DNA of 64,000 bases. It comes from Sphingomonas sp. EC-HK361 (GTDB taxonomy: Bacteria > Pseudomonadota > Alphaproteobacteria > Sphingomonadales > Sphingomonadaceae). Location: NCBI RefSeq assembly GCF_902498785.1, contig NZ_LR701494.1, forward strand, positions 558,001 to 622,000, in the 5' to 3' direction. Shown here piece after piece: positions 1 to 22,296 of this stretch (its first letter is position 1; each line of letters starts with the position of its first letter). The notes beneath the pieces were generated by a model. The model had not been told where the DNA came from. It searched no databases and worked only from the letters and a program-made list of their open reading frames with translations. A program made the position numbers and the translations under genes.

Positions 1-1
1 C

Positions 2-3000
2 CCTTATGGCGGCGGCAAGTCGAGTGCGGCGCTGCTGCTTGCCAATCTGGTCGCGGGAACCAAGGGGAATCGCAAGATCGCGCGCGACATTGCCGGCGAA
101 GCGCTGAGCCGCCTCTACACCGAAGCCTTTCCCGAGCCCAAGGGCCGCTGGAAAGTGGTCGCGGTCACCGGCAGCCGGCAGCGACTGCGCGATGCGATCA
201 TCGACGCCGCGACGATCGCGCTCGACTGGAGCTCGGCCGAGGTTGCCGCCCATAGTGCGAGCGACGACAAGCTGATCGCTGCGCTCATCGCGGGTGGTGA
301 AACCGCATCGAGCGGCACGCTGTTGATCCTCGACGAACTCGGCAAGCTGCTCGAACATGAAGCGCTCGAGGGCGGCGATGTGCATTTGCTGCAGGATCTC
401 GCCGAACATGCGACGCGCAGCAAGGGCCGGCTGGTCGTCATCGGCATCCTGCACCAGTCGTTCGAGCAATATGCCGCTCGCGCCGCGCGCGATGCACGGC
501 AGGAATGGGCCAAGGTCCAGGGCCGTTTCCACGATATCGCGTTCCTGTCCGGCGCCGACGAGACCGTCGCGCTGCTCGGACGCGCGATTTCGGCTGACCA
601 CCCGCCGTCAGCCGAGGATGTCGCCAGAACCGTCGCGGAGGAAGTCGCCAAGCGGCGGCCGACCGATACGCAGAGCCTCGCTCGCGCGCTCGCCGATACC
701 TGGCCGCTCAACCCGGTGACCGCGCTGCTGCTGGGGCCGGTTTCGCGCGCGCGCTTCGCGCAGAATGAGCGCAGCGTCTTCGGCTTCCTGAGTTCGGCTG
801 AACCATCGGGTTTCCAGGATTTCCTCGATCATGCCGACGACGCCGGCGCGACCTATGATCCTGCAATGTTGTGGGACTATCTCGCCGCCAATTTCGGCAT
901 GGCGCTCGCCGGCGGCACCGATGGCAGCCGGTTCAGCCTCGCCTATGAAGCGATCGAGCGCGCGGGCGCCAAGGGTGACGGCATCCATGTCGCGCTGACC
1001 AAGGCGGCGGCGGTGATCGAGTTCTTCCGCAACGGCTCGGGTGTGACGCTCGCTGACGAATTCCTCATCGCCTCGGTGCCGAATGCTCCGGAGAAAATGG
1101 TCCGCGCGGCAATCAGGGACCTGCTCGACTGGGCGGTGCTGATCCGCCAGCCGCGGCTGGGCGGCTATGCATTATTCGCGGGCAGCGACTTCGACCTCGA
1201 CGAAGCGATCGGGCGCGCGGAGATGCCGGTCGACAATGTCCAGCTCGAGGGCATTCCCAACCGAGTCGGGTTCGGCTTCGCGACCGCCAAGCGCCATTAT
1301 TTCCTGACCGGGGCGCTGCGTACCTTCGAGATCGCGCTGCAAGTGGTGTCGCCCGAAGACACGACCGAAACGCTGGTCGCACGCGTCAGCGCACGACCGC
1401 AGCGTGGCAGCGGACTGCTGTTGCTGTTCCTCGCCGATGGCAGCCTGCCGCGCCAGGCGGTGGAAGCGCTCGCCAAGAGCGTGGCCAAGGCGCTCAAGGC
1501 GAGCGGCCGGGTGATCGCGATCGGCAGCGCCAGCGAGAGTTTCGCGCTGCGCAGTGCCGCAGCTGAGCTGCTGGCGGTCGAACGTGTCTTCCGCGAGCAT
1601 CCCCAGCTCGAGGGTGACCGGATTGCCCGGCGTGAGATCGCCGCCCGCCAGTCGCGCTGTATCGACGAACTGCACCGCAAATTGGAAGCCGCGCTCGAAG
1701 GCGCGAAATGGTATCTGGCGCCGGCCCCCAAGCGCGCGCACAGCGAGCCGCTGGCGATCATCGCGAGCGCGCTCGCCGATGCCGGCTATGCCAAGGCGCC
1801 GATCCTCAAGAGCGAATTGCTCCAGCGCGACAAGCCGTCGTCGAACGCGATGGCGGCACTGCGCGATCTGGCGCATGCGATGGTCCATGCCGGCGACCAG
1901 GCGCAGCTCGGCATGACGCAATATCCCGCCGAGCTCGGGCTCTATCTGACGGTGATCAAGCCGTTCGGGCTCCACCGCGAGGTCGAACCGGGCCGCTATG
2001 CGTTCATGGCACCGGACGAGGAACGTGTCGGCCAGTCGCTCCAGCCGGCCTGGGACGTGCTCGACGCCGCCGGCGATGAGCCGCTCGACCAGATCTATGC
2101 GCGCTGGGCGGCCCCGCCTTATGGCATCAAGGCCGGGGTGATGCCGGCGATTGCGCTCGCCTATATGCTCGCCAAGGCCGACAGCGTGGCGATTTACATC
2201 GACGGCATCTACCAGACCGCGATCGACGATGTGGTGGTCGACAAGCTGATCCAGAAGCCGGGGAGCTTCCGGCTGCGCAAGATCGATCGTTCGGTGCGCG
2301 AACTCGCGTTTTTGAGCGGACTTGGCAAATTGCTCGAGGTTGAGGACAGCAATGCGTCGCTGCCGATCGCCGCGGCGCTGTTCCAGCGCTTCGAGGCCTT
2401 GCCGAATTTCGCGAAGCGCACCCAGCGGATCGACGGGCAGGCGCGCACCATCCGCGGCGTCGTCACCAAGTCCGACGACCCGGAGAAACTGCTGTTCGAC
2501 GATTTGCCCGATGCGCTTGGCGAGGCACTGACCCCCGAGGCGATCCACCAGGCGATCCTCGAGGCTGAAGCCAGCTATCCCGACCTGCTCGACGAAGTCC
2601 GGCTGGCGCTCGGGCGCGCACTTGGCATCGACCCCAATGATTTCGGCGGGATCACCGAACGGGCGGCCTTGATCAAGGGGCTGACCAACGACTATAATTT
2701 CGATGCCTTCGCCGATCGTGCTGCCGCGATCGAACAAGGCAATGGCGATATCGAGAGCCTGGTCAGCGTGTTGCTGCACCGTCCGGCGCGCAACTGGTCG
2801 GACCGCGACCGCGAGGAAGCGCTGACCGAGATCGCGCGCTATGGTCGACGCTTCCGCGAACTCGAGGCGCTGGCGGTGGTGCGCGACCGTAAGTCGCACA
2901 CCGAAGCGCTGGCGCTGGTCGTCGGGCTCGATCCCAAGGCACCGCCGCTGATGCGCAGCTTCGTCCTCAACGAGCAGGAAAAGGCCGCCGCCGCCAGCAT

Positions 3001-3124
3001 GGCCGATCGGTTGGTCGCGGCATTGCAGGCCGATGACAAGACCGGCCGGTTGCAGCTCGCCGCGCTCGCCCGCGCGGTGGCGATGCTCGCTGCCGAACAT
3101 GAGGATGAGGCCGAAGCGGCATGA
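2..3124 (+). CDS. sspC: SspC-like P-loop ATPase, 5' end outside window
   Basis: The reading frame is open from the left edge, so the N-terminus is missing; about 1040 residues are visible. The first visible residues form a Walker A motif (PYGGGKSS), and a Walker B (LLILDE, then LGKLLEH) follows about 105 residues later, so this is a large ATPase. The remaining ~900 residues are mostly helical with no motif I recognise. The stop codon overlaps the start of the next gene (ATGA), so the two are translationally coupled. A large ATPase directly before a PAPS-reductase-like protein, next to an FGH-type restriction operon, matches SspC of the SspBCD phosphorothioation module. There the ATPase supports sulfur insertion into the DNA backbone (family knowledge). 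BrxC of a type 4 BREX locus is the main alternative. I infer SspC from context; the ATPase fold itself is seen directly. Confidence 0.7.
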   Translation, partial: PYGGGKSSAALLLANLVAGTKGNRKIARDIAGEALSRLYTEAFPEPKGRWKVVAVTGSRQRLRDAIIDAATIALDWSSAEVAAHSASDDKLIAALIAGGETASSGTLLILDELGKLLEHEALEGGDVHLLQDLAEHATRSKGRLVVIGILHQSFEQYAARAARDARQEWAKVQGRFHDIAFLSGADETVALLGRAISADHPPSAEDVARTVAEEVAKRRPTDTQSLARALADTWPLNPVTALLLGPVSRARFAQNERSVFGFLSSAEPSGFQDFLDHADDAGATYDPAMLWDYLAANFGMALAGGTDGSRFSLAYEAIERAGAKGDGIHVALTKAAAVIEFFRNGSGVTLADEFLIASVPNAPEKMVRAAIRDLLDWAVLIRQPRLGGYALFAGSDFDLDEAIGRAEMPVDNVQLEGIPNRVGFGFATAKRHYFLTGALRTFEIALQVVSPEDTTETLVARVSARPQRGSGLLLLFLADGSLPRQAVEALAKSVAKALKASGRVIAIGSASESFALRSAAAELLAVERVFREHPQLEGDRIARREIAARQSRCIDELHRKLEAALEGAKWYLAPAPKRAHSEPLAIIASALADAGYAKAPILKSELLQRDKPSSNAMAALRDLAHAMVHAGDQAQLGMTQYPAELGLYLTVIKPFGLHREVEPGRYAFMAPDEERVGQSLQPAWDVLDAAGDEPLDQIYARWAAPPYGIKAGVMPAIALAYMLAKADSVAIYIDGIYQTAIDDVVVDKLIQKPGSFRLRKIDRSVRELAFLSGLGKLLEVEDSNASLPIAAALFQRFEALPNFAKRTQRIDGQARTIRGVVTKSDDPEKLLFDDLPDALGEALTPEAIHQAILEAEASYPDLLDEVRLALGRALGIDPNDFGGITERAALIKGLTNDYNFDAFADRAAAIEQGNGDIESLVSVLLHRPARNWSDRDREEALTEIARYGRRFRELEALAVVRDRKSHTEALALVVGLDPKAPPLMRSFVLNEQEKAAAASMADRLVAALQADDKTGRLQLAALARAVAMLAAEHEDEAEAA

Positions 3125-3960
3125 CCAACGAACGCCATATCCTCGGCATTTCGGGCGGCCGCGACAGCGCGTCGCTCGCCGTGTATATGCGCCAGCATCA
3201 TCCGCGACTGCCGCTCGAATATTTCTTCACCGACACAGGCAAGGAACTGCCCGAAGTCTATAGCTTCCTCGACAAGCTCGAGGGCTTTCTCGGCAAGCCG
3301 ATCCAGCGGCTCAACCCCGATCGTGACTTCGACTTCTGGCTCGACGAATACGGCAATTTCCTGCCCTCGCCGCGCACGCGCTGGTGCACCAGACAGCTCA
3401 AATTGCGGCCGCTCGAACATTGGCTGAAGGCCGATCTTGAGGCCGGCACGGTCATTCACAGCTATGTCGCGATCCGCGCCGACGAGCCGAGCCGCGAAGG
3501 CTATCAGGCGACTCATCCCAATATGCGCGTGCACTTCCCGCTGCGCGATGCCGGGATCGATCGCGCCGGGGTGCTCGAAATCCTCGAACAATCCGACGTC
3601 GGTGAGCCCGACTATTATAAATGGCGCTCGCGCTCGGGCTGCACCTTCTGCTTCTATCAGCAGAAAATCGAATGGGTCCGCCTGTCCGAAAACCACCCCG
3701 ACCGGTTCGCCGAGGCGGTCGACTATGAGAAAACAGCGCTCAAGGACGGCTCGCCCTTCACTTGGAGCCAGGGTGAGAGCCTGACCGAATTGATCGCGCC
3801 CGCGCGTGTCAGCCAGATCAAGGCGGATTATGAAAAGCGCCGCGAGCGGCTGCGCAGGAATCGCCGGTTCAATCCGCTCTCGGCCAACACCGCCGAGACG
3901 ATCGACGATGTCTATGGCATCGACGAAGGATCAAGCAGCTGCGTCATTTGTCACAAATAG
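3121..3960 (+). CDS. sspD: SspD/DndC-like ATP pyrophosphatase (PAPS reductase family)
   Basis: A 279-residue protein of the PP-loop/PAPS reductase fold. The PP-loop SGGRDS is at residues 11-16 and is expected to bind ATP and activate the DNA backbone for sulfur transfer. Cysteines lie at C89 (RWCTRQ), C174 and C177 (GCTFC), and C274 and C277 (CVIC at the C-terminus). That arrangement could hold an iron-sulfur cluster, as reported for DndC. It starts at the ATG that overlaps the stop of the ATPase gene, so it belongs to the same transcript. In phosphorothioation systems this subunit works with a cysteine desulfurase (DndA/SspA), which is not in the window. The BrxP protein of type 4 BREX has the same fold and is the alternative. 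The gene ends 17 bases before the stop of the converging operon. Confidence 0.8.
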   Translation: MTNERHILGISGGRDSASLAVYMRQHHPRLPLEYFFTDTGKELPEVYSFLDKLEGFLGKPIQRLNPDRDFDFWLDEYGNFLPSPRTRWCTRQLKLRPLEHWLKADLEAGTVIHSYVAIRADEPSREGYQATHPNMRVHFPLRDAGIDRAGVLEILEQSDVGEPDYYKWRSRSGCTFCFYQQKIEWVRLSENHPDRFAEAVDYEKTALKDGSPFTWSQGESLTELIAPARVSQIKADYEKRRERLRRNRRFNPLSANTAETIDDVYGIDEGSSSCVICHK

Positions 3961-3977
3961 GTTGACCGTCGCATCAC

Positions 3978-4931
3978 CTATTCGGCGTCCGTTTCAGAAC
4001 TTCTCCAGCGCTCTGGCAAGAGGTGAAGGCTTTTGAAGATCGTTCCTGCCGGTTCCGTAATCTGGTCGTAGGTTCTGGACATCGGAATGCGTTTGTTGGG
4101 CTGAACGAGCTGCAAACGGATTAGAGACTGGATCAATAGGAGTAGCAAACGCGACATCGCGTAAAAGCGTGCGAAGGCCCAGCCGCCGGGGAGATGATAG
4201 ATCGGGATGGGGTCGGAGCCATGGACGATATAGTTCCGAAAGATTCTCACTAATTCGGCGGCTGCAGCTGCTCCCTTGAGTTGATACTGCTGCTCGATTT
4301 TGCCGATATCTTCAGTGAGCACCTCATCTTTAAGGCAGCAATGCCTTGCCAGCCGGTAGGAAAAAGCAAGAAGGGGCATGTCCTCTGTCCGATCGTGAAA
4401 ATCGGCAAAGTGCTTTCGCGCTTGAACTGGCAGCTTGTCTTTCTTGTATTGCGCTATTTTGGTCTCTCGGATCGCGTCCTCATAAGCCATCCAGACAAAA
4501 TTGAAGACGGTCAGGCCCGCCACGTATTTCGAGGCCTGTTCACGATCGTCTTCGTCGCTTTCCCAAGCCGGGCTGCACCATGCCCAAGCCTCGGAGTCAT
4601 CTGTGATTGAGGGATCCGCGAACACATCGGTGATGCTCGCTGCCATTTGAAGCGGATAGCAAACTCCCGGCCAAGCCTCATAAGCACCTTCTGCGCCCGG
4701 CAGCTGGCCTTCGTGGCCAGCTGAGAGGATGACGCGCACCAGCTCGGCGATATGATCGCGCAGCGGACTGAAAGATGCGATGTTGCAATCAGGCTTTCCG
4801 CAGCTGCAGGTAAACAGTTTCGTCGCTGGATCGATCGCTGTGTATCGGAGCGTCGCGATTCCTGCCTCGTCGTACGTCAGTCGCTCCATCCCCGGCACAA
4901 AATGAAGCGATTGACGCTCCCGAGCCGTCAT
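3978..4931 (-). CDS. putative HEPN-domain protein at the end of the sspFGH operon
   Basis: A 317-residue protein with no assigned family. I chose the ATG that follows the sspH stop by four bases, with AGGTGA as ribosome binding site; a start 26 codons upstream would overlap sspH. The N-terminal part has a cysteine cluster, CSCGKPDC (C42, C44, C49). From about residue 135 the sequence is helical, with an aromatic segment (FNFVWMAYEDAI) and then RNYIVHG at 232-238. RNxxxH fits the Rx4-6H active-site motif of HEPN ribonucleases, and the spacing between helices fits a HEPN fold. Two sampled 60-base stretches contain 31 and 27 G+C, clearly below the ~63% of sspH, so it may have joined the cassette separately. 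The HEPN assignment and any ribonuclease role are inferences. Confidence 0.6.
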   Translation of the reverse strand: MTARERQSLHFVPGMERLTYDEAGIATLRYTAIDPATKLFTCSCGKPDCNIASFSPLRDHIAELVRVILSAGHEGQLPGAEGAYEAWPGVCYPLQMAASITDVFADPSITDDSEAWAWCSPAWESDEDDREQASKYVAGLTVFNFVWMAYEDAIRETKIAQYKKDKLPVQARKHFADFHDRTEDMPLLAFSYRLARHCCLKDEVLTEDIGKIEQQYQLKGAAAAAELVRIFRNYIVHGSDPIPIYHLPGGWAFARFYAMSRLLLLLIQSLIRLQLVQPNKRIPMSRTYDQITEPAGTIFKSLHLLPERWRSSETDAE

Positions 4932-4935
4932 GGCG

Positions 4936-7900
4936 TCACCTATCCCCCGCGATGATCGCATCCACCACCGCGTCGATATCGTCGTCTGACAGGAAAGGGG
5001 CCTGCGCATAGATGATCGACGGCTCGCCGCTCAATCGCGCGGCGAGATGGCCTAGCCCCAGCAACTGTTCCGCACCCTTCACGCCGAGCGCAATTTCCGA
5101 TGTGCCGACGCTCGCCACCTTGAGGATCAGGCGATTGCCGAGATTGTCGCGCAGCTGCATCGGCATTACATTGGCATCGGGCCGTTGGGCTGCGAAGATC
5201 AGGTGCATGCCCGCCGCGCGCGCCTTGACCCCGAGCCGCGAAACGTTGGACGTCACCGCCGACTTATACTCGTCGGTCAGCATCCATTCGGCGAATTCAT
5301 CATGGACCAGAAACACATAGGGTAGCCGCTCGGAGGGCGGGACTTTGGTGTTGAACGCGCGGATGTCGCGCGCGCCATGGGTGCGGAACAGTTCGTAGCG
5401 CCGCTCCATCTCGGCTACGAGGCCTTCCATCACTTCGACCGCGCGGGTCTGGTCGACGATGACCCCGCCTTGCAGATGCGGCAACCGCTCGATCGCCGCA
5501 TAGTCGACCCCCATTTTCGGATCGATGAGATAGATGTGCGCGAGATTGCTGGCATTGGTGACAGCGATATCGAGCAACAGCGCCTGGATGAGCACCGATT
5601 TGCCCGAGCCAGTCGCACCCGCGACCAGCGTATGCGGCTCGTGCTGCTGCCCGCCGGCGAAGGGACCGCCAAGGTTGAGATAGAGGATGTCGCCGTCGAG
5701 CTCCTTCAGCCCGAGCACGAACGAGGCGTTCACGCCGGCGGCGTTGCGGTTGATCTCGCGGCGCGCCCAGACATCCCAGAGCGACACGATCTGCCGCTGC
5801 GGCCGGGCAACCCCGACGACGATCTCGCCGGGAAGCGGCGACACCGAAATCAACCGCAGGCCATGGGTGGTGAGCAGTGCTGACTGACGCGCCTCGATGT
5901 CCTCGACGCGCAGCCGGTCGGACCCCATGAAGCGGATCAGCGCGGCATTGGGGGTGAGCCGGGTGCCGGTGATCTTGGCCTGGAGATTATAGCCGAGCAG
6001 CGCCGATCGCAGCTTCTGCGCGGTCGCGTCGAGCCAGCTTTGCGCCTCCGCCGATTCTTCATGCGCCTTTTCGGCGCGGGCCTGGATCAGGGCGTCGATC
6101 GAGAGACCTGACCCTGCCTGCGCTACGGGAACAGCCGGCGCTGCCACGGGCGCGGGTGCGACGGGATCGGGCGGCGGCGGGGTCACCGGCGCTGCTTGAG
6201 CACCCGCAGACGCGGTTTCGACCGGGCTGGTCACAGCCTCGACCGGCGCAGCGCTCTCCCCTGCCCCACCGCTGTTGCCTGCTGGCGGCGATGCGTCAGG
6301 TGTCGCGGCCTCGCTTTCGGTCGGTGGGGTGGCGGTTGCTGCATCCGTCGGTGCCGCAGGCTCGCTATCCGAACCCGCAGCTGCACCGCTATCGCCGGAA
6401 CCGGGCGTCGGCGCCGGCTCATCGACGGTGATGCCGCCTTCGGGATCGCCTTCGTCGTCATCCTCATCATAATCATGGACGATCGGCTTGGCGGTGGCGG
6501 CGGGCGTCGCATCGACCCCGATCGACTTGGTCCATTCGACGCGCGGGGCTGGCGCGCTGAAGTGAGGCGTATCCCAGCTGCGATCCTCGCCAAGGCTCTC
6601 GCGCACGACGGCGAGCGGCGCCCGTGCTTCATAGGCTTTCAACAGCTGGCGCAGACCCTCGCGGGAGAAGGTCTCCTGCAGACCACCCTGGATCCCGGGC
6701 AATGCGTCCTGCTCGCCCGCATTGCTGCCATCGCCGGCCGGGCCGGAGATGAAGATGTGCGAATAGCCGCGCAGGTCGATCGGAACGGCGCCGCGCCGGA
6801 TCCCGTCGCGCACCCGCTCGAGCAGATTGGGCTGGCCCAGGGCTGCTGTGCCGTCGAGAAGCAGGTCGGCGATGCGCGACAGCCAGAGATCGCGGTCGAG
6901 ACGGCCGGGATCGCCGAACAGGGCGTCATCAATCCGCGCGACGGTCTGGCGAAGCTGGCCGCGCGACTTGCGGCTGGCTTCGGCCGCACCCGTCTGATCG
7001 ACATATTTGGCTTCGGTGACGATCGCGCGCAGCCGCGGCTCGCCCTCAGCATCGGTCGAAAGGCTGAGCCCGAGAATATCGGCGATGCCCTCCTCTTTCT
7101 GACCGAGCCACTCGGCATAATCGTCGAGCAGGAACCAGGCGATCGCGGCGCTGCTGCCCATTTCCTCCGCGATCAGCGCACGGCTGAGCACGAGCCCGAT
7201 AAGTTCGCCGGCAGAGACGCCGCGCTTGGCGGCGCGCAGCACGATGTCGCCCGAGATCGCGTTGGCGTCCTCGATCATCCGCTTGGCGAGCGCACCGAGC
7301 CGCGCGTCGTCGAGGCCAAGCGACAATTCGGTCAGGCGGCGCAGAACCAGAACATGCAGAATGCGCAGTTCGGAGGTCGAGGACACCACCATGTTGCGAC
7401 CATGGGTGCGCTGCCGGCGATAGCGAATGACGTTGATGCCCTGTGCGGCGAGCTGGCGCTTGTCGAGCAGGTCGTCATAGGTCGCGACCCATTCGGCGAG
7501 GCCATGGACCTCCTCGAACATCGCCTTCAATCCGCCATCTTGGAACGAAATCTGGCGCGCGGGCAGATAATGTTCGTCGGGCGCGTGGGACTGGCGGCGC
7601 ACAATGTTGGCGATGGCATCGACATAGGCCCAGCCGGCATCGGGCTGGCGAGGACAGGTAAGATAGCTGGTCGCCTTGAGCTCGTCCTCGGAGGTCACGC
7701 GGCGATAGGACCAGCGCGCCGGGACATGCTCGAGCAGGGTCGGATTGTCGCTGATCGCGGGCACCGGAAACCATTGTTCGCGCGCCTGGCGCGAGACGAC
7801 ATCGTGCAGGAAGGCGACATCGATTTCGCGGGTGTTGCCGCCGGTGGTGGTGCCGGCGTCGAGCATCACGCCGATGCGCAGCTTGGACATGAAATTGCGC

Positions 7901-10464
7901 GAGGTCTCGCTGACGACGACCGCGTCGGGATCGCCTTCGGAGCGTTCGAGCAACTCGGTATAGACGCGCGAGAGGCGCGAGCGGTCGCGGTGCCGCACCA
8001 GCACATTGCAATGCACCTCGTCCTGGTCCTGCACCGAGCCGAGCGCATTGACGGTCGCGAGCGGCAGACCCGCCGCATCGCAATTGTAGAGCATGATCGA
8101 CAGGTTCGAGCGCTCATGCGGCTGGAGGTCGAGATAGCGTTCGAGCAAGCTACGGATCTGCCGCGCCGCCTCGGCCGGATCGACGTCGGTGGTCGCCTCG
8201 GACGGATCGCGCACCGGCCGCTCGAGCAGGCTATAGTCATTGACCGTGCTGGTCTCGGCGAGGAGCACCGCCTCGCTGCCGTCATAGCCGACCGCGATTT
8301 CAGGAAAAAGTGGATGGGCAAGTTCGTCGCGCAGATCGGCGAAGAACAGGCGCGAATCGCCGAAATTCACATCGACATCGGACAGCAGATAATCGGCCAG
8401 TCCCGCAACCGAGCGCATCTTGGCGGCGCTGGCGGCAAGGCGCAGCGGATGCCACGGCGCGACGATCGCCGATGGCGCGCCACCGACCACGGTGACGGTG
8501 CCGAGGCTGAGCAAGGGTTCCCAGAGGTCGCGGCGGTTGAGGTCGCCGACCGCATGGGCGGCGAGGGTCGAGAGCAGCGCGCCATAGGCCTCGGCCTGCG
8601 CGATCAGCGTGCCCGAGGCATAGCCCGAGCTTTGCAGGGCGGTCAGTGCGTCGGTGTAGAGCGCGGCGAACGCGGACCAGCTCGCCTCGATCGCGGCAAA
8701 GCCGGCGGCGTCGATGCGGCCGCCGTCGCGCGCGGTCCTCAGCGCCTTGGGGAAGAGCTTGGCGATATCCTCGCCTGCATTGGTGCGCGGCACCAGCGTG
8801 CCGGCATCCTGGCCGAAGGCAGGCTGTAAGGTGCCGACATCGACGAGCGACACGGATTGCAGCGCGCCTTTGCGGCTGACCGGCAGGCGCGCGACATTGC
8901 TGCGCACGAACGGGCGCTTGAGCAGCCGGCCGACATCCTTGGGCATTTCGACCCCGATGACGCCGGGTTGCCCGGTCCAGACTAGCTGCACGGTGGCGCG
9001 TTCGCCGCCGACGCTCAGCGCGATATCGAACTTAATCTGGATCGCGCCGCGCGCGGTGGACTCATTGCGGCGATATTTCTTCTGGCGCGCCTTGGCGCGG
9101 TCGAGCAGCTCTTCATAGGCGAAGAGATGCGGCACATCCCAGTCGACTGAGGGGCCGATCAGGTCTTTCAGACCGCGATAGCGCAGACCGAAGGCGAGAC
9201 CGACATCGGCGTTCAGGTCGAGCCACTGGTTGCGGCTGCGGCGTGCCGACTTGATCGTGAGCTTGCGCGTACCGCCGAGCAAATTGACCTGACCGAACAA
9301 GCGTTCGATCGCCCGCAACAGTCCTTCGAGAAAATCAGTGCATTCGATCGGGCGGCCGAAAATGAACCGCTCCCATTTGACGCGGAGCGATTTGTCCTGG
9401 GCGAGATCGTCGCGGTGGGCCTCGAAGAAATCGCGATCGTCGTCGCGCGTCTCCTTGAGCGAGCGGCCCTTGAGCGCAGTTAGATAGTCGTTGTCGGCCG
9501 CGCTCAGCCGGTCGGGCAAGGTGAACTCGAAGAAGTTGATGGTCTCCTGCGCGAAGGAGGTCTTCTTCAATTTGATGCCCGAGAAGAGCTGGAGGACGCT
9601 CTCCCCTTCCCATTCGAACGCGGCGAGCGCTTCGGCTTCCGGTCCCCAGCCCGGCGCGGTGTCGATAAAGGCGTCGATCGCCGGGTGCACTTCGGCCGGG
9701 ATATCCTCGCGGACCTCCTCGAACTGGCTGCGCAGCTCGTCGCTTTCGATGATCTGGCGGTTGGGCCGCTGCTTCACCAGAAGCGGCTTGCGGTCGGAGA
9801 CCAATTTCTCGAACAGCTTCTTCCAGCGGCGCGGCTGTTCGCGGTCCTTGTCGCCGAGCGCCATGAAATAGCCGCTGTCACGGGGCAGGCGCAGCGCCGG
9901 CAAGGCCCAGCCGAGCGCCGCGGCTACCGGCACGGCGTCGGTTTCGATCCGCTCGCGCGTCATCGCGACATAGGTGCCGATCTGATGGAGCGTCCAGTCA
10001 TCCGCGCTGTTGAGACCGCGCAGCGCCGCCTTCCACGCGGCGATCTGGGTATCGACGAGACCAAGCCCTGCAACCGCGGCGTCGACCCAGGGGTCGGGCT
10101 CCTCGGTCAGCTGCTTGGCGCCGATCAGCGTGACGTCGCCGAGCGAGGCGCCCTGGTCGTCATCGGTATTGGCGATGAGCATCGCCGGCCGATCGCATTC
10201 AAGGTTGCGGACGCGCACGGTACGCTCGTCGGTGATGACCGTTTCGGGCAGACCGAACGGCGCGACGAGGTCGCGCGGCAGCGCAATCATCAATTTGGCC
10301 GCGGTCGCGCCATCGGCAAGCAGCGCGCGGGTGATCGCGGCGACCTGTTCGCCGGTCAGCCGGTCGAGCAGATAGCGTGCGAGTTCATCCTCGGGGGTGA
10401 GGCTTTCCAGACGCAGGCGAATGGAGGTTGCGCCGGCGGCGCCAATCAGATCGGAAGGAGTCAC
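4936..10464 (-). CDS. sspH: SspH/DptH-like protein with C-terminal FtsK/HerA motor domain
   Basis: An 1842-residue protein. The last ~235 residues are an FtsK/HerA-type DNA motor: Walker A GATGSGKS at 1616-1623, Walker B VFLVHDE at about 1717-1723, and the family signatures FAAQRPDANV and LRDNLGNRLI. A disordered stretch of about 130 residues, rich in Ala, Pro, Glu and Asp, links the motor to a ~1320-residue N-terminal part of unknown fold. This large-protein-plus-FtsK layout matches DptH/DndH, the third gene of the phosphorothioation-dependent restriction module; SspH is its counterpart in the single-strand system. In those systems FGH attacks DNA lacking the phosphorothioate mark. The GTG start overlaps the sspG stop (GTGA). 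The gene probably acts as the DNA-translocating or DNA-processing subunit of the complex; the nuclease site, if any, was not located. Confidence 0.75.
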   Translation of the reverse strand: MTPSDLIGAAGATSIRLRLESLTPEDELARYLLDRLTGEQVAAITRALLADGATAAKLMIALPRDLVAPFGLPETVITDERTVRVRNLECDRPAMLIANTDDDQGASLGDVTLIGAKQLTEEPDPWVDAAVAGLGLVDTQIAAWKAALRGLNSADDWTLHQIGTYVAMTRERIETDAVPVAAALGWALPALRLPRDSGYFMALGDKDREQPRRWKKLFEKLVSDRKPLLVKQRPNRQIIESDELRSQFEEVREDIPAEVHPAIDAFIDTAPGWGPEAEALAAFEWEGESVLQLFSGIKLKKTSFAQETINFFEFTLPDRLSAADNDYLTALKGRSLKETRDDDRDFFEAHRDDLAQDKSLRVKWERFIFGRPIECTDFLEGLLRAIERLFGQVNLLGGTRKLTIKSARRSRNQWLDLNADVGLAFGLRYRGLKDLIGPSVDWDVPHLFAYEELLDRAKARQKKYRRNESTARGAIQIKFDIALSVGGERATVQLVWTGQPGVIGVEMPKDVGRLLKRPFVRSNVARLPVSRKGALQSVSLVDVGTLQPAFGQDAGTLVPRTNAGEDIAKLFPKALRTARDGGRIDAAGFAAIEASWSAFAALYTDALTALQSSGYASGTLIAQAEAYGALLSTLAAHAVGDLNRRDLWEPLLSLGTVTVVGGAPSAIVAPWHPLRLAASAAKMRSVAGLADYLLSDVDVNFGDSRLFFADLRDELAHPLFPEIAVGYDGSEAVLLAETSTVNDYSLLERPVRDPSEATTDVDPAEAARQIRSLLERYLDLQPHERSNLSIMLYNCDAAGLPLATVNALGSVQDQDEVHCNVLVRHRDRSRLSRVYTELLERSEGDPDAVVVSETSRNFMSKLRIGVMLDAGTTTGGNTREIDVAFLHDVVSRQAREQWFPVPAISDNPTLLEHVPARWSYRRVTSEDELKATSYLTCPRQPDAGWAYVDAIANIVRRQSHAPDEHYLPARQISFQDGGLKAMFEEVHGLAEWVATYDDLLDKRQLAAQGINVIRYRRQRTHGRNMVVSSTSELRILHVLVLRRLTELSLGLDDARLGALAKRMIEDANAISGDIVLRAAKRGVSAGELIGLVLSRALIAEEMGSSAAIAWFLLDDYAEWLGQKEEGIADILGLSLSTDAEGEPRLRAIVTEAKYVDQTGAAEASRKSRGQLRQTVARIDDALFGDPGRLDRDLWLSRIADLLLDGTAALGQPNLLERVRDGIRRGAVPIDLRGYSHIFISGPAGDGSNAGEQDALPGIQGGLQETFSREGLRQLLKAYEARAPLAVVRESLGEDRSWDTPHFSAPAPRVEWTKSIGVDATPAATAKPIVHDYDEDDDEGDPEGGITVDEPAPTPGSGDSGAAAGSDSEPAAPTDAATATPPTESEAATPDASPPAGNSGGAGESAAPVEAVTSPVETASAGAQAAPVTPPPPDPVAPAPVAAPAVPVAQAGSGLSIDALIQARAEKAHEESAEAQSWLDATAQKLRSALLGYNLQAKITGTRLTPNAALIRFMGSDRLRVEDIEARQSALLTTHGLRLISVSPLPGEIVVGVARPQRQIVSLWDVWARREINRNAAGVNASFVLGLKELDGDILYLNLGGPFAGGQQHEPHTLVAGATGSGKSVLIQALLLDIAVTNASNLAHIYLIDPKMGVDYAAIERLPHLQGGVIVDQTRAVEVMEGLVAEMERRYELFRTHGARDIRAFNTKVPPSERLPYVFLVHDEFAEWMLTDEYKSAVTSNVSRLGVKARAAGMHLIFAAQRPDANVMPMQLRDNLGNRLILKVASVGTSEIALGVKGAEQLLGLGHLAARLSGEPSIIYAQAPFLSDDDIDAVVDAIIAGDR

Positions 10465-12002
10465 GCGGCTTGGGCTCGCTGGAACGGGTTTTCGACATAG
10501 GCGCAGCTGTCGGACAGGCGATTCAACAGACCGAGGCTGGCGAGCCGTTCTTCCAAACGGTGCGCATTGTCGGAGAAATCTTCCTGGTCGGCGGTGCCGG
10601 CGTCGATGAACGGCCGGGCCTGGGCGTCGCCGATAATGAGGCCATAGCGCTCGTGGAGCCGGATCAAGAAATCCTTGAACTCGAGGCGCTCGCCGACACA
10701 GGCGATGACCAGTGTCTTCAACAGTCGATCGGTAGGTGCATAGCGAACGCGCCGGCTCGAGCGCCGCGACGCAAGCCCAATCGCGCGCGACCAGGTCATG
10801 TGGATCTTGCCGACATGCTGTTTGTGGCGAACCGTCGCCCGGTCGACCAGCGCATCGACAAAATCCTGCGGGTCGGTCGAGAGCTCGTCGTCGTCGCCGT
10901 CGGGCCAGCCGAACTCGCGCTTGAGGATGTCGATCGCATTGAGCGTCGGATCGTCCGACGCCAGCGCCTCGGTCCAGACATCGGTCGCGGTGACGCGGCG
11001 CACGAAATGCTCGATCGCTTGCTGCGGCAGTATGTTGTTGTGCTGATAGCTGTCGGCCGAGAGGTCGCGCACCACCGATTTGCGCGGCGAGACGATCTCG
11101 CAGACGAGGCTGATCGGCGGCCGGTCGAGCAACTCGCGCGCGCGGTCGAGCTGATAGAGGATGAGATTGAGCCCGGTCATGGTGACGAGATGCGGGATCG
11201 CGTCATGCGCCGGAATCGGCAGGTTGAGGATTGCAAGCCAGTCGGCGGCGAGCCGGTCGAAGATCGGATGGCTCGAACAGGGCAGATAGGCGCCGGCGCG
11301 TTCGGCCTTGGCGAGCTGCCGCTCGCCCTGCAGGGCATGCGCCATGCTGTCATAGGGCACCGGGCTTTCCAGAAAGCGCGTGACGAGCAGGTTGCGCAGC
11401 GCATCGGCATGCTGGCTGCGGCTGAGCATGAGATAGAGGAGTTCGCCCGAGCGCGCGAAGAAGCGGCGGTCGTTCGAGACACTGCCGCTCGGCTTTACAT
11501 TGACGTCTTCGTAGAGCGCGTGCGGACCGAACGGGAACACGAATTTCGAACTCCAGCGCTTGTTGCTGGTGCCCTCGATCGCCGAACCCTGGAGGAAGCT
11601 CAGCACGGCGGCGAAATCGTCGAAGCTCTCGAACCGGTCGCGCAAATAGGCGAAGTTGCGATCCTCGATCCCGCCGGCGGTGTCGGCCATTTTCTCGAGC
11701 CAGCTGGCCCAGGCCGCCTCGTCCGAGCGGGCCTCGGCGCGCACCGTCATCACATGCGGATTATTGAAGACCAGGTTGCGCAGCCGCAGCTGCAGCTGCG
11801 GCTTGTAGGAGAGGCTGTTGAGCCGCTCCTCCCTGAGCGCCCGTCCCTCGCGATGCTCGGCGAGCAGCACGGTCATAAACTCGAGGAAGATCAGCCAGGG
11901 CGCCTGTTCGTCGTGCAAGCGATGGCCCCAAATCGCTTCGTCGATCCAGAAGGCGGGACCAGCGCGATCCTCGAACTCGGTGGGGCGGGCAAGGATTTCC
12001 AT
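10461..12002 (-). CDS. sspG: SspG/DptG-like restriction module protein
   Basis: A 513-residue protein with no nucleotide-binding motif or other signature that I recognise. It is named from its position: it lies between a P-loop ATPase of the F type and an FtsK-type protein of the H type, in the order and approximate sizes of the dptF-dptG-dptH (sspF-sspG-sspH) module. It starts two bases after the sspF stop and its stop overlaps the sspH start, so the three are made from one message. In the known systems all three subunits are needed for restriction and this one is thought to be structural or a coupling factor. A profile search against the DptG/SspG families would settle the name. Confidence 0.6.
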   Translation of the reverse strand: MEILARPTEFEDRAGPAFWIDEAIWGHRLHDEQAPWLIFLEFMTVLLAEHREGRALREERLNSLSYKPQLQLRLRNLVFNNPHVMTVRAEARSDEAAWASWLEKMADTAGGIEDRNFAYLRDRFESFDDFAAVLSFLQGSAIEGTSNKRWSSKFVFPFGPHALYEDVNVKPSGSVSNDRRFFARSGELLYLMLSRSQHADALRNLLVTRFLESPVPYDSMAHALQGERQLAKAERAGAYLPCSSHPIFDRLAADWLAILNLPIPAHDAIPHLVTMTGLNLILYQLDRARELLDRPPISLVCEIVSPRKSVVRDLSADSYQHNNILPQQAIEHFVRRVTATDVWTEALASDDPTLNAIDILKREFGWPDGDDDELSTDPQDFVDALVDRATVRHKQHVGKIHMTWSRAIGLASRRSSRRVRYAPTDRLLKTLVIACVGERLEFKDFLIRLHERYGLIIGDAQARPFIDAGTADQEDFSDNAHRLEERLASLGLLNRLSDSCAYVENPFQRAQAA

Positions 12003-12004
12003 TA

Positions 12005-13858
12005 TCAGACTCGCACAATCACGCGGCGCGGTTGCGCGCGGCCGTCGGCACTCAGCTCGATGAAGCGCAGCACCAGTTCGCCCTCGGCGGCTTCGTCGTC
12101 GCCATCGAGCTTGCGGCGGGTTTCAGTCTCGCGCAGCAGCCGCGCCTTGAACGCCAGCAAATCCTCATGGCATTCGAGCGAGAAGCTGCTGGGCAACGCG
12201 CCTTCGGCGACGCGGCCGAGAAATTCGAAGCGGGTTGGCGAGAGCGACAGGAATACCGGCGGGATTTCGCTGCCGCGCACCAGCTTGACCGAGACGCCGA
12301 ACGATCCCTCGCTCTTGTCGGCGACTATGCTGACTTCCTCGCCGCCTGAGCGGGGGACCGAGATCAGCTCGTCGAGCAGCGGGCTGCGCTTCGACTGTGA
12401 ATAGCTGCCAGAGGTCGCGAGCACGAGTTCGTCCTGGTTCTGGACCAGCATGCCGGTGAAGATGCGGTTGAGGCCGCGCACCACCATGTTGAGCGCGGCG
12501 CGCGGCACCGGCTGCTTCGCGGCGACCTTCTCGGCGACCTCGAGATAGAGACCGGCGTAGCGGAACACGGTCAGATCCCACAGATCATAGTCTGCCGCCT
12601 TGTCCGCGGGCATGGTGAAGAAGAGGCGCTGACGCTGGGCGCGCAAGGCGCCCAGAAAGCTTGCCCGGTCGCCATCGTCAGTGCCTTCGAGATAACCGCG
12701 CTGCGCGTTGGTATAGGCCGGTGTCGCGCCATAGACAGGATCGCCAAGTACGAGCGCGTTATAGTCGGCGGCATATGCCGGATCGTCGGCGCCATAGACC
12801 AAAAGATTGTCGACCCGGTTGCTGGTCTCGGCACCGATGCCGAAGGCGTTAAGCTTGCGGAACAGCTCGGTTTTCTCGGCCTTACTGGGCTTTAAATTTT
12901 CACCGAAGATGTTCCGGTAGATCGACGCGCGATCGGCGTGTCCCGACGCTTGGATGCCCGCCACATCGTTGCAGCTCATCAGACCGTCGCGCGCCTCGGG
13001 ATGGCCGAGAATGGCATTGGCAACGAGCGCGAGCAGCTGGCGCACCGGAAAATGGCTGCCGTTGCGCTCGCTAAGCTCGATAAGCGCGGTCAGCCGGTGC
13101 TTGAAGGGATCGTTGGGGCCATCGCCGATCAGCCGGCGCCGATTTTCAAAGATCGGACAGCTGCCGTCGCTGCTGGCACCGCATTCACCACACCCTTCCC
13201 AGCCCTCATGGTCGGTGACTTCCTCTATGATCGTCATTGCCATTTCGGCGGCGGGCGACCGGCTAAGATCGGTCAATTCGAGCGCGATGCCGGAATCGGC
13301 ACTGGCGCCGGTGACGAGCAGATCCTCAACCACCTTGCTGACCCGGACCACCGCGTCGTTTGCCGGCGCCGATTTGAGCTTTTCGAGCAGCTGGCCGTGA
13401 TTGGCCGCGAACAGATAGAAAGTGTCGGTCGCGGGATTAGCGACATCCTGCGCAAACTCAACGATGAGATTATTGCTCTCATCGTCACGGAGCTCGCTTA
13501 GATCCTTGACGATGACGAGCGTGCGCGCACCCACTGCGAGCCGCTGGACCTTGTCGCCGTGGTTCCAGGCCGTGACATCCCCGCCGAGCTCGGTCCAGAC
13601 TTCGCGGCAGTGATAGGTTTTGCCGTCGCCGGCGGTACCGGTGATGATGTGCGAAATCGGCGCATCGCCGCGAAACATCGCGACAAGGCGGTCGCGCAGC
13701 GGCGCAGGCAAGGTGATCGGTCGAATCTTGTGGCGGCGCAGCGCGCGTTGGATCGACTCGTCATACATATTGTCGTTGGTCGGGATGGGTCCGTAGTTGC
13801 GTAGAAACCGCACCCATGCCGCCGCCGTTGAATTCACTGACAAGTTCGACCCCGACAT
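12005..13858 (-). CDS. sspF: SspF/DptF-like P-loop ATPase of the restriction module
   Basis: A 617-residue ATPase and first gene of the minus-strand operon. Walker A GTAGDGKT is at residues 74-81; a hydrophobic strand (TLVIVKDLSE, about 113-122) may serve as Walker B. A cysteine cluster (C223, C226, C234) resembles a metal-binding knuckle. This layout and the position at the head of an F-G-H set fit DptF/SspF, which uses ATP in restriction of unmodified DNA. No strong ribosome binding site precedes the chosen ATG; an in-frame ATG 30 codons downstream (at Met31) still retains the P-loop, so the start is uncertain. Confidence 0.72.
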   Translation of the reverse strand: MSGSNLSVNSTAAAWVRFLRNYGPIPTNDNMYDESIQRALRRHKIRPITLPAPLRDRLVAMFRGDAPISHIITGTAGDGKTYHCREVWTELGGDVTAWNHGDKVQRLAVGARTLVIVKDLSELRDDESNNLIVEFAQDVANPATDTFYLFAANHGQLLEKLKSAPANDAVVRVSKVVEDLLVTGASADSGIALELTDLSRSPAAEMAMTIIEEVTDHEGWEGCGECGASSDGSCPIFENRRRLIGDGPNDPFKHRLTALIELSERNGSHFPVRQLLALVANAILGHPEARDGLMSCNDVAGIQASGHADRASIYRNIFGENLKPSKAEKTELFRKLNAFGIGAETSNRVDNLLVYGADDPAYAADYNALVLGDPVYGATPAYTNAQRGYLEGTDDGDRASFLGALRAQRQRLFFTMPADKAADYDLWDLTVFRYAGLYLEVAEKVAAKQPVPRAALNMVVRGLNRIFTGMLVQNQDELVLATSGSYSQSKRSPLLDELISVPRSGGEEVSIVADKSEGSFGVSVKLVRGSEIPPVFLSLSPTRFEFLGRVAEGALPSSFSLECHEDLLAFKARLLRETETRRKLDGDDEAAEGELVLRFIELSADGRAQPRRVIVRV

Positions 13859-14157: not shown

Positions 14158-14364
14158 ATGGCCAAAGATGCTCACACACCCACGCGCCTCATCCGGCTGC
14201 CTGAAGTTAAACTCCGGACTGGTCTCGCCCGATCATCCATCTACCGCATGATGGAGCACGGCGGTTTCCCACGACCTCGGAAGCTCGGGCCACGGGCCGT
14301 CGCCTGGTTAGTGAGTGACATCGATCATTGGATCGACAGCCGGCCTGCAAAGCCGAGCGTTTGA
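14158..14364 (+). CDS. AlpA-like excisionase/transcriptional regulator
   Basis: A 68-residue winged-helix protein of the AlpA/MerR-like excisionase type. The core runs RLPEVKLRTGLARSSIYRMM, then GGFPRPRKLG and a tail with DIDHWI, the usual pattern of this family in mobile elements. I chose the ATG preceded by GGAGCA; a TTG four codons upstream would also be in frame. AlpA proteins activate excision genes or act as recombination directionality factors. Here it lies between the defence operon and a tRNA gene, the usual place for such a regulator at one end of an integrated island. Confidence 0.85.
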   Translation: MAKDAHTPTRLIRLPEVKLRTGLARSSIYRMMEHGGFPRPRKLGPRAVAWLVSDIDHWIDSRPAKPSV

Positions 14365-14536: not shown

Positions 14537-14613
14537 TGGCGCGCCCGGAACGATTCGAACGTCCGACCCTCAGATTCGTAGTCTGATGCTCTATCCAGCT
14601 GAGCTACGGGCGC
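14537..14613 (-). tRNA. tRNA-Arg (anticodon ACG)
   Basis: A 77-base cloverleaf including an encoded CCA. The 7-bp acceptor stem (GCGCCCG/CGGGCGC) pairs perfectly, the T loop contains GTTCGAATC, and the anticodon loop CTACGAA gives ACG, read as ICG after deamination. The 3' end points toward the defence island, the usual orientation when a tRNA gene serves as an integration site. Confidence 0.97.

Positions 14614-19287: not shown

Positions 19288-22296
<3,009 letters not shown>

Follow-up and report, generated by a model that had tools for sequence, protein, structure and literature searches.

A Sphingomonas SspABCD-SspFGH phosphorothioate island with a candidate HEPN-type RNase as the fourth gene of its restriction operon

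We analyzed a 64,000-nucleotide (nt) stretch of the Sphingomonas sp. EC-HK361 genome (contig NZ_LR701494.1, positions 558,001 to 622,000; hereafter the window), of which positions 1..13858 near certainly belong to an SspABCD-SspFGH phosphorothioate defence island and form its right-hand portion. The core of this system is of a known kind and ordinary; a fourth gene in the sspFGH restriction operon, hereafter orfX, makes it a variant. The gene identities, the operon layout, a conserved OrfX motif and the recurrent linkage of OrfX to ssp and dnd genes are established by the data below, and we propose with moderate confidence that OrfX is a HEPN-type RNase that serves phosphorothioate defence as a backup or co-effector.

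The island and its four-gene restriction operon

Two plus-strand genes represent the modification module. The first, sspC (2..3124), encodes the modification-module ATPase, and its 5' end lies off the window: the reading begins PYGGGKSS and matches PADLOC model PDLC02780 (1066.3 bits) over profile positions 60-1044 of 1045, so about 59 N-terminal residues are off the window. The second, sspD (3121..3960), encodes a PP-loop/PAPS-reductase-like sulfur transfer protein (PDLC02782, 441.7 bits, profile 1-277 of 277; PF01507). On the minus strand, sspF (12005..13858) encodes a P-loop ATPase (PDLC02793, 813 bits) with the Walker A motif GTAGDGKT at residue 74, sspG (10461..12002) matches PDLC02799 (717.1 bits), and sspH (4936..10464) encodes an FtsK/SpoIIIE-type motor whose N-terminal part is long (PDLC02806, 2404.1 bits; PF01580 at residues 1607-1762). 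These genes form one operon, with 2 nt between sspF and sspG and a 4-nt overlap of sspG and sspH, and sspC and sspD adjoin them, as expected for an SspABCD-SspFGH system. For all five proteins the top PADLOC match was an Ssp model (442 to 2404 bits); an NCBIfam scan of the island proteins gave matches below cut-off only. An initial annotation, made from the sequence alone, had assigned the plus-strand GGGKS ATPase and PP-loop protein to SspC/SspD and the minus-strand P-loop ATPase, middle gene and FtsK-type motor to SspF/G/H. Our profile hidden Markov model search upholds both assignments and the phosphorothioate-defence reading built on them.

The restriction operon continues beyond sspH with orfX (3978..4931, minus strand), which encodes a 317-residue HEPN-like protein carrying R232-N-x3-H237 and an N-terminal CxCx4C motif. 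Its likely start is the ATG at 4931, only 4 nt after the sspH stop, which makes coupled translation likely; the start at 5009 in the list of open reading frames falls inside sspH. Thus the F-G-H layout described earlier for the minus-strand module stands, and its count of three genes has to be raised to four. The 17-bp convergent gap reported with it also exists (3961..3977), but it separates the stop of sspD from that of orfX and not from that of sspH, which is 975 bp away.

In published work, the host DNA is marked by SspBCD and a cysteine desulfurase acting together. SspFGH damages DNA that lacks the marks, suppresses the replication of phage DNA and is harmful to cells whose DNA is unmarked (PMC8092258). 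The island resembles the Vibrio anguillarum FF-93 SspABCD-SspFGH system of that article in having sspBCD beside a three-gene sspFGH, with a P-loop ATPase as F, a G protein, and an H protein with an FtsK-like C-terminus. It differs in that orfX follows sspH, a gene not named in the available part of the article, whose text has no occurrence of 'HEPN', 'convergent' or 'orientation'. There is also some likeness to MADS, as the C-terminus of SspG scores 49.5 bits against MAD7 (under the cut-off of 410) and the motor of SspH 77.8 bits against mad8; MADS, however, is by its name methylation-associated and not phosphorothioate-based, and these scores are far under those for SspG and SspH.

The closest relative of the island, in a metagenome-assembled Sphingomonadales genome (locus L005), has sspB and sspA at the expected place beyond sspC. 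Its order is sspF-G-H-orfX convergent with sspD-C-B-A, and its proteins are 88-95% identical to SspF, G, H and D of the window (SspD 95%, SspH 88%) and 83% identical to SspC. SspB of L005 matches PADLOC at 343 bits and Pfam DUF4007, and its SspA matches PADLOC at 374 bits and aminotransferase class V. The D-C-B-A order is also annotated in plasmids of Sinorhizobium (L001) and Rhizobium (L003), and SspB and a cysteine desulfurase are present in all three loci. These data bear on type 4 BREX, in which the SspC- and SspD-like genes would belong with pglZ and brxL. The left flank falls outside the window, and homologues of SspC, SspD and SspB are common to type 4 BREX (PMC12839542). Nevertheless, BrxC reached 286 bits for SspC and BrxP 30 bits for SspD, hundreds of bits under the Ssp models; sspFGH adjoins sspCD; the annotations around L001 and L003, the two relatives examined for PglZ and BrxL, name neither of them; and the six proteins encoded at 1..13858 gave no PADLOC match to either. 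Because the Ssp profiles score higher and the L005 flank holds SspB and SspA, we reject a type 4 BREX identity, which we regard as extremely improbable.

Linkage of OrfX to ssp and dnd genes

OrfX is uncommon, and where it occurs it tends to be linked to phosphorothioate genes. A plasmid search gave three records with relatives. A scan of genome contigs, based on two peptide patterns and likely to miss members of the family, gave five loci; two scans of viral contigs and one of a phage collection gave no relative. A sample of the class gave OrfX matches in 4 of 385 genomes, one being the genome on which the sample is centred and one a weak match (G372, 22 bits) that was dropped, and a sample of the family gave 2 of 397, again including the central genome.

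Outside the window, ssp or dnd genes lie near OrfX in eight of nine loci, at one of them at a distance of about 16 kb. The arrangements vary. As in the window, orfX follows sspH in L005, while it is divergent from sspF at 0.5 kb in L006. In L008, which is from the species of L001, it lies about 2.4 kb upstream of sspF, and the interval contains DUF262 and SIR2 genes. A Caulobacter sp. (L007, 9875-12195) has two tandem diverged copies, both with RNxxxH, and an sspFGH-sspDCB cluster (L014, L015) with an SspA homologue lies about 16 kb away. In Ahrensia (L009), orfX is 5 kb from sspD with SspE (906 bits) between, and the genome has no SspG. Three loci are of the dnd type: orfX is separated by 23 bp from dndA in L004, sits inside a dnd cluster (DndC, 674 bits) in L017, and in L019 has a dnd-type Orf5 gene (708 bits), itself beside dndBCD, at 28 bp. 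At the ninth locus (L018), orfX lies by a truncated cysteine desulfurase gene, and the genome carries its sspC and sspD on a separate contig (L031).

These counts can be set beside the base rates of the partner genes. SspD was clear in 9 of 372 alphaproteobacterial genomes (8 full length, 1 partial), or 45 when weak PAPS-reductase-like matches are included, and DndC was over cut-off in 8 of the 372 (17 with any match). Both other genomes of the class sample with strong OrfX matches (G070, G080) are among the 17 genomes with clear SspD or DndC, the class samples used for OrfX and for SspD/DndC being non-identical sets.

An alignment of 11 OrfX sequences from ten loci, including the window, has 18 invariant columns, among them E151, R232, N233, H237 and G238, and RNxxxH is kept in every sequence. 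The CxCx4C motif near the N-terminus follows a different pattern, since it is present in all six sequences linked to sspFGH and in none of the five others (dnd, SspE, L018). The six sspFGH-linked sequences form one group with support of 100/99. As the split between the groups may represent a single event, the correlation of CxCx4C with SspFGH is inseparable from ancestry.

This pattern favours an alternative in which OrfX is not an RNase and instead belongs to the SspFGH complex as a structural or regulatory subunit, for example a nucleic-acid binding adaptor acting through CxCx4C; the start of orfX 4 nt after the sspH stop fits this as well. On the other hand, RNxxxH is invariant in both OrfX groups, including the members that lack the cysteine motif, and in Vibrio the three-gene SspFGH cassette with SspBCD protects by itself (PMC8092258). 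We consider a subunit role improbable.

OrfX as a candidate HEPN-type RNase

HEPN RNases carry an Rx4-6H motif with a polar residue after the arginine (PMC3710099), which the R-N-x3-H of OrfX fits. In an AlphaFold2 model of OrfX, the motif sits at the end of the helix at residues 220-236, which precedes the last long helix (250-273), and the helix at 122-156 contains E151, an arrangement that agrees with the description of HEPN proteins in the same article. We put the chance that OrfX is an RNase at about even.

OrfX had no match in Pfam (E up to 10) or PADLOC and no relevant one in NCBIfam, and a PDB sequence search with an OrfX profile returned no HEPN chain. HEPN families are divergent, and a match in sequence to a known one does not strictly define membership. 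SUMO E2 enzymes did appear in the profile search of solved structures (E 0.0096 or worse), at positions 68-127 and off the motif, and were taken as chance matches. As for HEPN toxins of known structure (8xeh, 8yuf), the modelled OrfX has its motif at the end of the penultimate long helix, the position that PMC3710099 gives for HEPN domains. It is unlike them in that the orfX of the window has no MNT-type neighbour. A HEPN-MNT toxin-antitoxin pair is thus absent here; the neighbours of orfX, checked in the window only, are sspD and sspH.

Two sets of observations weigh against our proposal. First, the fold match of OrfX is weak and not above the helical background, with 8-9% identity to 8xeh and 8yuf in the structural alignment; the comparison is a single VIA-align run whose list leaves other families possible. 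Second, most sspFGH loci are without orfX: only 2 of 33 SspG-bearing plasmid records have OrfX matches, both from Sinorhizobium americanum, and of the 11 plasmid sspFGH loci inspected all but L001 gave none. The latter rarity would be expected if this were a plain SspABCD-SspFGH island in which orfX, an unrelated gene for abortive infection or simple cargo, had landed where the two modules converge and had no functional tie to SspFGH. The lower G+C content of orfX (55% vs 65% in its neighbours) and the general clustering of defence genes point the same way. Against unrelated cargo stand the linkage of OrfX to phosphorothioate genes in eight of nine loci, the variety of arrangements in which it occurs (3' of sspH, upstream of or divergent from sspF, and next to dndA or to a dnd-linked Orf5) and the single, well-supported group formed by its sspFGH-linked members. 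We judge this alternative unlikely, at roughly one chance in four, and retain the proposal of a HEPN-type backup or co-effector.

Under this proposal, SspA and SspD would move sulfur while SspB and SspC would choose and modify host DNA sites, in keeping with their roles in the literature, and SspF, SspG and SspH would damage unmodified incoming DNA, as published. OrfX, which probably shares a transcript with SspH, would be a second effector that attacks RNA. It may be silent while phosphorothioate marks satisfy SspFGH; once SspFGH encounters DNA without marks, or is itself inhibited, OrfX would cut RNA and halt the infected cell. Here the RNase activity, the gating and the benefit for phage defence are what we infer. 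Toxin nucleases, HEPN included, have been proposed as suicide backups of immunity loci (PMC3506569), and stand-alone HEPN and PIN RNases at dnd locus boundaries have likewise been proposed as suicide backups (PMC10853773). The latter article differs from our case in describing dnd neighbourhoods, and 'SspFGH' is absent from its text; an overlap of the dnd-linked OrfX members with its families is possible. In a literature search that covered few subscription papers, we found no description of a HEPN protein with SspFGH or of an Ssp-linked OrfX family. SspFGH is known experimentally. A HEPN-like family that travels with both Ssp and Dnd would bear on how cells cope with failure or misfiring of a phosphorothioate system, and would make the suicide-backup proposal of these articles testable through one gene and two residues.

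Relatives differ in what fills the slot 3' of sspH. No gene lies between sspH and sspD in eight loci (seven plasmids and Caulobacter L014), where the stops are 5 to 48 bp apart (L001 16, L003 24, L014 36, L022 14, L023 17, L024 48, L026 5 and L027 15 bp); in L006/L030 the distance is 448 bp, and L025 was left outside this comparison, its sspH end not being clear-cut. The slot holds orfX in the window and L005, SspE in Methylibium (L028; 779 residues, PADLOC 1361 bits) and a 344-residue DUF262, NsnA-like protein (133 bits) in Sphingopyxis (L002), so second effectors are added there. A broader and more tentative extension, one we think less likely than not, is that OrfX founds a HEPN RNase family dedicated to phosphorothioate defence in both its Ssp and Dnd forms. 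CxCx4C would then dock the sspFGH-linked group to SspFGH, so that unmarked DNA also triggers RNA cleavage, and SspFGH would be a system of DNA damage and RNA shutdown with interchangeable second effectors after sspH (HEPN here, SspE in Methylibium).

Convergent layout in relatives and the island edge

The initial annotation had also suggested that the convergent arrangement of the modification and restriction genes might matter for their relative expression; the arrangement itself proved to be common. sspFGH and sspBCD are convergent in 12 of the 13 relatives where both modules were seen (L001/L008 counted once, L003, L005, L006+L030, L014+L015 and L022-L028), the exception being a co-directional Chloroflexota plasmid (L029), and this rules out the layout as a novelty. 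Plasmid relatives were inspected in 11 of the 33 SspG-bearing records. Outside the layout count are L002, whose 29.5 kb contain sspFGH and no match to sspBCD, and L009, which has sspBCD with SspE and no SspG in the genome.

Several of these relatives have further features of their own. A histidine kinase gene (annotated as a sensor) and a neighbour encoding a hypothetical protein of 640-710 residues recur near sspFGH/sspBCD in Agrobacterium and Rhizorhabdus (L023 6289-10565, L027 5079-9439) and in the Chloroflexota plasmid (L029 5024-9597), there between sspC and sspD. Likened by annotation alone, they are another candidate accessory pair. In Rhizorhabdus pUPO218 (L027 9703-12498) the sspF match is broken by an IS5-family transposase gene, and in Sphingobium xenophagum p1 (L025 13997-18007) the SspH frame is shortened; the sspBCD matches of both plasmids are full.

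Near the right edge of the island, a gene for an AlpA-type regulator (14161..14364, plus strand; PF05930, 73.9 bits) is divergent from sspF; its product may regulate the sspFGH-orfX operon or the excision of the island. Beyond it, ARAGORN places a tRNA-Arg(ACG) gene (14537..14613, minus strand) with its 3' end towards the island, a likely integration site, followed to the right by genes for ALAD (HemB), a GNAT protein and valyl-tRNA synthetase (ValRS). In a sample of eight hemB loci one had tRNA-Arg in a short flank, and of three genomes extended further (G559, G540, G444) two support insertion at the tRNA gene. These two (L041 in G540 and L042 in G444) have tRNA-Arg(ACG) near HemB/GNAT and no ssp, orfX or AlpA match by tblastn in 12 and 14.5 kb, while the third (L040 in G559) has no tRNA-Arg in 12.5 kb, tRNA-Thr only. 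The island was thus probably inserted at the tRNA-Arg gene.

Farther into the right flank, valS (19288..22296, minus strand) has an in-frame insert of about 35 residues (~524-558; window 20590..20721) relative to the solved Thermus-type enzyme 1gax. The DNA of this insert contains an inverted repeat, GAGCGAAGTCGAAG ... CTTCGACTTCGCTC, and resembles a REP-type element read through as protein.

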